DNA from: Anaeromyxobacter diazotrophicus
GTDB lineage: Bacteria > Myxococcota > Myxococcia > Myxococcales > Anaeromyxobacteraceae
Reading direction: 5' to 3'
NCBI RefSeq assembly: GCF_013340205.1
Contig: NZ_BJTG01000011.1
Coordinates: 1 to 64,000, forward strand
Length of the DNA stretch: 64,000 nucleotides
Part shown: positions 39,436-45,336 of the stretch, one piece after another
Position numbering within the stretch: the first letter of the stretch is position 1
Layout of the letters: each line of letters begins with the position of its first letter
The notes under the pieces: model-generated
What the model was told of the DNA's origin: nothing
Databases searched by the model: none
Seen by the model: only the letters and a program-made list of their open reading frames with translations
Made by a program: the position numbers and the translations under genes

Positions 39436-39612
39436 GGGACCGCCCCGTTCTAGAGACCCCGGGGTGAGGACGCAACGCGACGCGCCTCCCCGCGGTGTTG
39501 CCTCGAATGAGCAGTGGCCCCTCTTAGGGCTAGGAAGTTCGCGGCCCTCTGGGACAATAGCTCCTTCATTTTCGCCGCGGTCCCGCCCCGACGGGTCCGC
39601 TCCCGAGGACGC

Positions 39613-45084
<5,472 letters not shown>

Positions 45085-45120
45085 GGCGCCCGCGCGGCTC
45101 GTACCGGGAGGAGGTCCACC

Positions 45121-45336
45121 TTGGACGATCGCCCTCGCCGCTCACCCTGGAAGCGCCTCCTCGCCGGCCTCGGCGCCGGGGCGCTGCTCGGGCTGACCTA
45201 CAGCTTCGCCTCGCAGGCGCTCGGCTCGACCTGATCGATCGCCTGCAACCCGGCGGTCGCCGGGTCGATGGGGGCGCTGCTCGGCGCGGTGGCCTTCGCG
45301 GGCGACGGAGGGCGCGAGCCGCGCGAGCGGCGCTGA
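45121..45336 (+). CDS. Small membrane selenoprotein candidate with in-frame TGA (Sec38)
   Basis: 71 codons from TTG 45121 with GGGAGGAGG six bases upstream. Codon 38 (45232-45234) is TGA, but the frame stays open to TGA 45334-45336, and third positions remain almost all G/C after it. Read as selenocysteine, the protein has a Gly-rich helix (about 13-30), the motif STUSIACNP and a second helix (about 48-60). I recall small DUF6132 membrane proteins with Gly-Thr-Cys-Pro-(I/L)-Thr-Ser-Asn-Pro at the same place, so Sec would replace a conserved Cys. Cys42 lies four residues away and could pair with it. A hairpin with a GGTC loop follows the TGA. It lies 36 bases after the poly-HAMP kinase gene and is probably co-transcribed. 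The alternative is a pseudogene or sequencing error. Confidence 0.75.
45232..45269 (+). promoter_or_regulatory. Candidate bacterial SECIS element
   Basis: After TGA (45232-45234), CCCGGC (45249-45254) pairs perfectly with GCCGGG (45259-45264) around the loop GGTC (45255-45258). The first loop G is 21 bases past the TGA, inside the window seen for bacterial SECIS elements (roughly 16-37). The E. coli fdhF element also carries GGUC in its apical loop. A lower 5-bp helix is possible between ATCGA (45234-45238) and TCGAT (45265-45269), with a 10-base bulge. SelB would bind here to recode the UGA. Confidence 0.65.

Follow-up and report, generated by a model that had tools for sequence, protein, structure and literature searches.

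A recurrent in-frame TGA codon very probably encodes selenocysteine in a small two-helix membrane protein of Anaeromyxobacter

Does the TGA at codon 38 of a short gene behind a large histidine kinase end a 37-residue peptide, or is it read as selenocysteine (Sec, U) within a longer membrane protein? The gene lies in the 64,000-nucleotide stretch of Anaeromyxobacter diazotrophicus DNA analyzed here (the window), and its architecture as given in the original prediction, i.e., a ribosome-binding site, a TTG start and 71 codons with a TGA at codon 38, was borne out by direct reading (Table 1). Past this TGA, 33 more codons follow before the final stop, and the translation with U is LDDRPRRSPWKRLLAGLGAGALLGLTYSFASQALGSTUSIACNPAVAGSMGALLGAVAFAGDGGREPRERR. 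The TTG at 45121 is the earliest usable start 3' of the histidine kinase stop, in the same frame and 36 bases after it. The kinase itself (window 39514-45084, + strand, 1856 aa), which immediately precedes the putative selenoprotein gene in the same frame, is a very large hybrid histidine kinase with a long run of near-identical repeats that look HAMP-like by eye. Judged from sequence comparisons, window 45121-45336 very probably encodes a 71-residue two-helix membrane protein in which TGA codon 38 is read as Sec. The best explanation overall would be a genuine selenoprotein gene with a SECIS-directed Sec38 and a remote kinship to DUF6132, to which we assign a probability of roughly 0.93, its biochemical role being graded separately.

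Table 1 Features of the putative selenoprotein gene in window coordinates
Feature	Position	Strand	Details and basis
Ribosome-binding site GGGAGGAGG	45106..45114	+	6 nt upstream of start codon; read directly
Coding sequence, 71-residue selenoprotein (putative)	45121..45336	+	TTG start, final stop TGA 45334-45336; full-length homologues
First predicted membrane helix, ~residues 12-34	45154..45222	+	hydrophobic stretch
Sec-encoding TGA (putative), codon 38	45232..45234	+	15 genomes share TGA at this column; 13 close homologues have Cys
Cys42, partner of Sec38 in U-x-x-x-C motif	45244..45246	+	invariant in 23-member alignment
Bacterial SECIS hairpin (predicted), 7 bp ACCCGGC / GCCGGGT	45248..45265	+	loop GGTC 45255-45258, 20 nt after TGA
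Second predicted membrane helix, ~residues 44-61	45250..45303	+	model helix 44-60

Comparison of the window protein with 24 genomes of its family retrieved relatives in three more genomes, at 52-69% identity and each with TGA at the codon-38 position; that the gene is present in only 4 of these 24 genomes counts against the selenoprotein reading. The resulting four-sequence alignment was next searched against 195 genomes of the phylum (Myxococcota level), with two further widening rounds, and TGA was found at exactly the codon-38 column in 15 genes from 15 genomes and four families, while TAA or TAG occupied it in no member. The original prediction had suggested looking for homologues with Cys or U at this position and aligned past the TGA, and both kinds were found: the TGA homologues, with identities down to ~30%, are homologous on both sides of the codon, and 13 close homologues carry Cys at the Sec column, nearly all with a C-x-x-x-C motif. 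In genome G146, one weak match differs slightly in the placement of its Cys residues. A separate set of DUF6132-like proteins with Cys was also recovered by the phylum searches. Invariant columns in the 23-member alignment are Sec/Cys, Pro44, Gly55 and Cys42, the last confirming the predicted cysteine four residues past the TGA. Across the six pairs that the four close orthologues form, change was greatest at third codon positions in 6/6 pairs before the TGA and in 5/6 after it, and least at second positions after it, as coding sequence on either side of the TGA would predict. On the tree, the TGA forms need three state changes, at least two of them forced by well-supported branches, and the exact number of Sec/Cys changes is uncertain owing to the shortness of the alignment. 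Two genomes (G156 and G157; L090-L092, L096) each combine a single TGA form with a single Cys form and are useful for Sec/Cys comparison. Among viral contigs and plasmids the scans turned up no relative, and two scans of genome contigs gave no match and only two already known members, respectively; the contig-scan patterns were back-translated with Cys codons and would thus miss TGA forms.

Behind the TGA, the core GCGGTCGC stands at a fixed distance in 15/15 TGA genes, forming a hairpin whose GGUC loop begins 20 nt past the UGA, and it is absent from all five Cys homologues read at the DNA level. Published limits for bacterial SECIS elements are a loop of 3-9 nt with G in its first two positions, a stem of 4-16 bp, a spacing of 16-37 nt and a minimum free energy of at most -7.5 kcal/mol (PMC13188914), and the window hairpin (spacing 20 nt, GGUC loop, 7-bp stem and -13.3 kcal/mol when folded alone) falls within them. 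Within the group designated f11 the unbroken stem is 4 bp, with a bulged U and extra pairs after it in some members, and the folding energy of the wider region is by itself not outstanding (z 0.53, one case). Synonymous-site conservation and covariation are stronger SECIS evidence than folding energy. The loop codons are GCG for Ala and GTC for Val in every one of the 15 TGA genes, their wobble bases being invariant; the wobble positions of other conserved residues vary freely (Gly35: C8 A1 G3 T3; Gly55: C8 G4 A1 T2). Moreover, Pro44 and Ala47 have codons whose wobble bases stand opposite one another in the stem, and these bases are complementary in 15/15 (C-G 8, G-C 6, U-A 1), the sole U-A pair belonging to a member from the window's own genus. 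As related sequences are not independent, at least two distinct double changes were counted for a covarying pair. In a TGA-containing formate dehydrogenase gene of the same genome, the Sec codon is followed by GGCC-GGUCU-GGCC, whose GGUC loop matches that of the window hairpin. Three such formate dehydrogenase genes are present in all (G000:C4:75552-78596, C6:335304-338300 and C10:25062-28097; L137-L139), the SECIS loop being GGUC in one and AGUUU-type in another. Rfam models at gathering thresholds gave no match in the window and none at selB.

The genome itself (G000; 4.83 Mb, 17 contigs, 100% complete) is equipped for Sec insertion: the proposed check for selA, selB, selC and selD found all four, i.e., selB (337 bits), selA, tRNA-Sec (selC, 76.3 bits) and a selD that has an in-frame TGA of its own. 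Across the phylum, selA scores above the cut-off in 15/15 genomes that hold a TGA form, and only Cys forms occur in the three tested ones that lack selA (G162, G034, G041). The tRNA-Sec was not recovered in three TGA-form genomes, G010, G012 and G024, with assembly completeness of 92, 80 and 70%, respectively. In one genome with a Cys form (G034:C26 and C28) tRNA-Sec and a TGA-containing selD occur and selA was not found, perhaps owing to an incomplete assembly. A separate genome (G028:C477 and C273) has two full-length selD genes, one with an in-frame TGA and one without.

Were the TGA a true stop, the product would be a single-helix peptide of 37 residues, which is the reading expected from ordinary gene callers, and the remainder would be a decayed or untranslated remnant. 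We regard this as very improbable, given that amino acids are conserved on both sides of the codon in 15 genomes, that Cys-type homologues are full length, that substitutions 3' of the TGA are of the coding type and that a SECIS hairpin follows. Structures downstream of UGA can also programme read-through, so the codon might be passed by near-cognate suppression, inserting, e.g., Trp or Cys in place of Sec. That, too, is hardly credible: homologues have Cys at the site and none has Trp, the genome has a complete set of Sec genes besides several further selenoprotein genes with TGA, and the hairpin fits a SelB-type SECIS and has the same loop as that of the genome's formate dehydrogenase. A sequencing error, raised as an objection in the original prediction, is rejected as the identical TGA occurs in 15 genomes with the hairpin conserved, and the conserved TGA and hairpin likewise reject a frame artefact. 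The Sec-for-Cys replacement put forward in the original prediction is thus supported by the 15 TGA and 13 Cys homologues at one column, the Sec machinery and the SECIS hairpin, and the selenoprotein reading is the one we retain. Under this reading, SelB bound to the GGUC-loop hairpin just behind the UGA would bring Sec-tRNA to codon 38, and the product would be a protein of 71 residues whose two membrane helices are joined by a short loop bearing the Sec38-x-x-x-Cys42 pair.

The residue context of the TGA had been likened in the original prediction to the conserved Cys site of DUF6132 (PF19628), a group of small membrane proteins that bear the motif GC-x-TG-x-CPITSNP. This link holds only at a distance. 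Profile-profile alignment (hhalign) of the family with nine DUF6132-like sequences of the phylum spans 62 columns with a probability of 97.7% (E 2.5e-12) and places Sec38 over the Cys of the DUF6132 GTC motif, and both groups appear to have two helices flanking a short Cys-bearing loop. However, the PF19628 model matches neither the window protein nor anything in a direct genome search, and it finds 3/23 family members weakly (best E 0.0083), short of the gathering score. Of the two GC-x-TG-x-C cysteines only the second aligns (as Sec) and the first is absent from the family; the second conserved Cys thus precedes the site in DUF6132 but comes four residues after Sec in the window family. Furthermore, the DUF6132-like members found in the phylum have Cys only, in contrast to the Sec of the window protein. 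As far as these alignments can tell, the family is distantly related to DUF6132 and stands outside the Pfam membership; the Cys, Asn-Pro and Gly-Ala positions that both groups share speak for true homology, although Gly/Ala membrane repeats can inflate such scores.

Neither Pfam nor NCBIfam gave a useful match to the window protein or the 23 members, and in NCBIfam 20.0 no relevant match was seen for 23/23 members at E up to 1, the TsoA, TsoY, GOS_B/C and DG/DF models included. A 2026 review lists 119 prokaryotic selenoprotein families (PMC13188914), and neither among these nor among the deep-Sep additions of PMC12013277 is there a small two-helix U-x-x-x-C membrane family that could be equated with this one. 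Nearest by motif is TsoA (NF045695, LULAxC), in which, judging from the motif name, Sec is followed by Cys four residues on, but its model matches 0/23 members at E up to 1. The YeeE/YedE thiosulfate transporter selenoprotein (PF04143), sulfur-related, also lies in the membrane and has its Sec in a loop, but its motif is GUxSG rather than U-x-x-x-C; the Sec-containing mercuric transport protein (PF02411) is likewise a small membrane selenoprotein, but its C/SxxU motif is spaced differently, and neither of these Pfam families was matched. The window family seems to be one of selenoproteins that current catalogues lack, and an uncurated GenBank annotation of it may exist.

What might such a protein do? 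The predicted structure has helices at residues 9-33 and 44-60, the latter being the second membrane helix that had been anticipated past the TGA, and a short turn helix at 38-41 that contains Sec (mean pLDDT 64, i.e., low-to-moderate confidence); a search of solved structures gave no relative. N-terminal tails are basic across the family and the loop has few charges, and this arrangement of charged N- and C-terminal tails around a little-charged loop suggests that both termini are cytoplasmic and the Sec/Cys loop periplasmic. Among the neighbors at the seven DUF6132-like loci read, Pfam identified rhodanese, thioredoxin, a rhodanese-thioredoxin fusion, a YgaP-like membrane protein, OsmC and a metallo-beta-lactamase-fold protein, hinting that DUF6132 serves sulfane-sulfur metabolism; at four loci (L104, L105, L107 and L109) DUF6132-like genes are clustered with rhodanese, thioredoxin, OsmC and metallo-beta-lactamase-fold genes. 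The neighbors of the U-type genes inspected share no common theme across families beyond local synteny: the order polA, U-gene, histidine kinase and MscS-like channel is partly kept in the window's family, and in the f11 group the U-gene is followed by a SprT-like gene and lipoproteins. Because DUF6132-like genes adjoin rhodanese and thioredoxin genes, a sulfane-sulfur or thiol role is proposed, and since the U-type genes lack a constant neighbor across families, it rests on these remote relatives. We tentatively infer that the Sec/Cys pair could act as a membrane-anchored relay, either in selenol-thiol redox or for sulfane sulfur (persulfide), in which Cys42 would resolve a selenenyl-sulfide formed at Sec38.

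The main rival to a relay role is metal binding, in which Sec/Cys would hold a soft metal or metalloid (Hg, As or Cu) in a small membrane transporter or sensor. Sec-containing transport proteins, including MerT-like ones, are listed in a recent review and have been proposed to bind metals (PMC13188914), the window protein is a small membrane hairpin, and ArsR-like and methyltransferase-like genes, identified by sequence reading only, are present at one DUF6132-like locus. Nevertheless, no metal-resistance gene was recognized beside the U-type genes inspected and a match to the MerT family is absent, so that we deem this role unlikely.

Selenoprotein genes are routinely truncated or missed, short ones above all, and this family would add a two-helix membrane protein whose loop holds a Sec at an unusual U-x-x-x-C spacing. 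For the uncharacterized DUF6132 group, the Cys replaced by Sec would be a first clue to the active residue. More speculatively, these proteins may represent an uncatalogued class of membrane-embedded Sec-x-x-x-Cys relays that move reducing power or sulfane sulfur/selenium and in which Sec and Cys have been swapped repeatedly. The Sec/Cys pairs found in close relatives, and even within one genome, would allow direct tests of why selenium is used.
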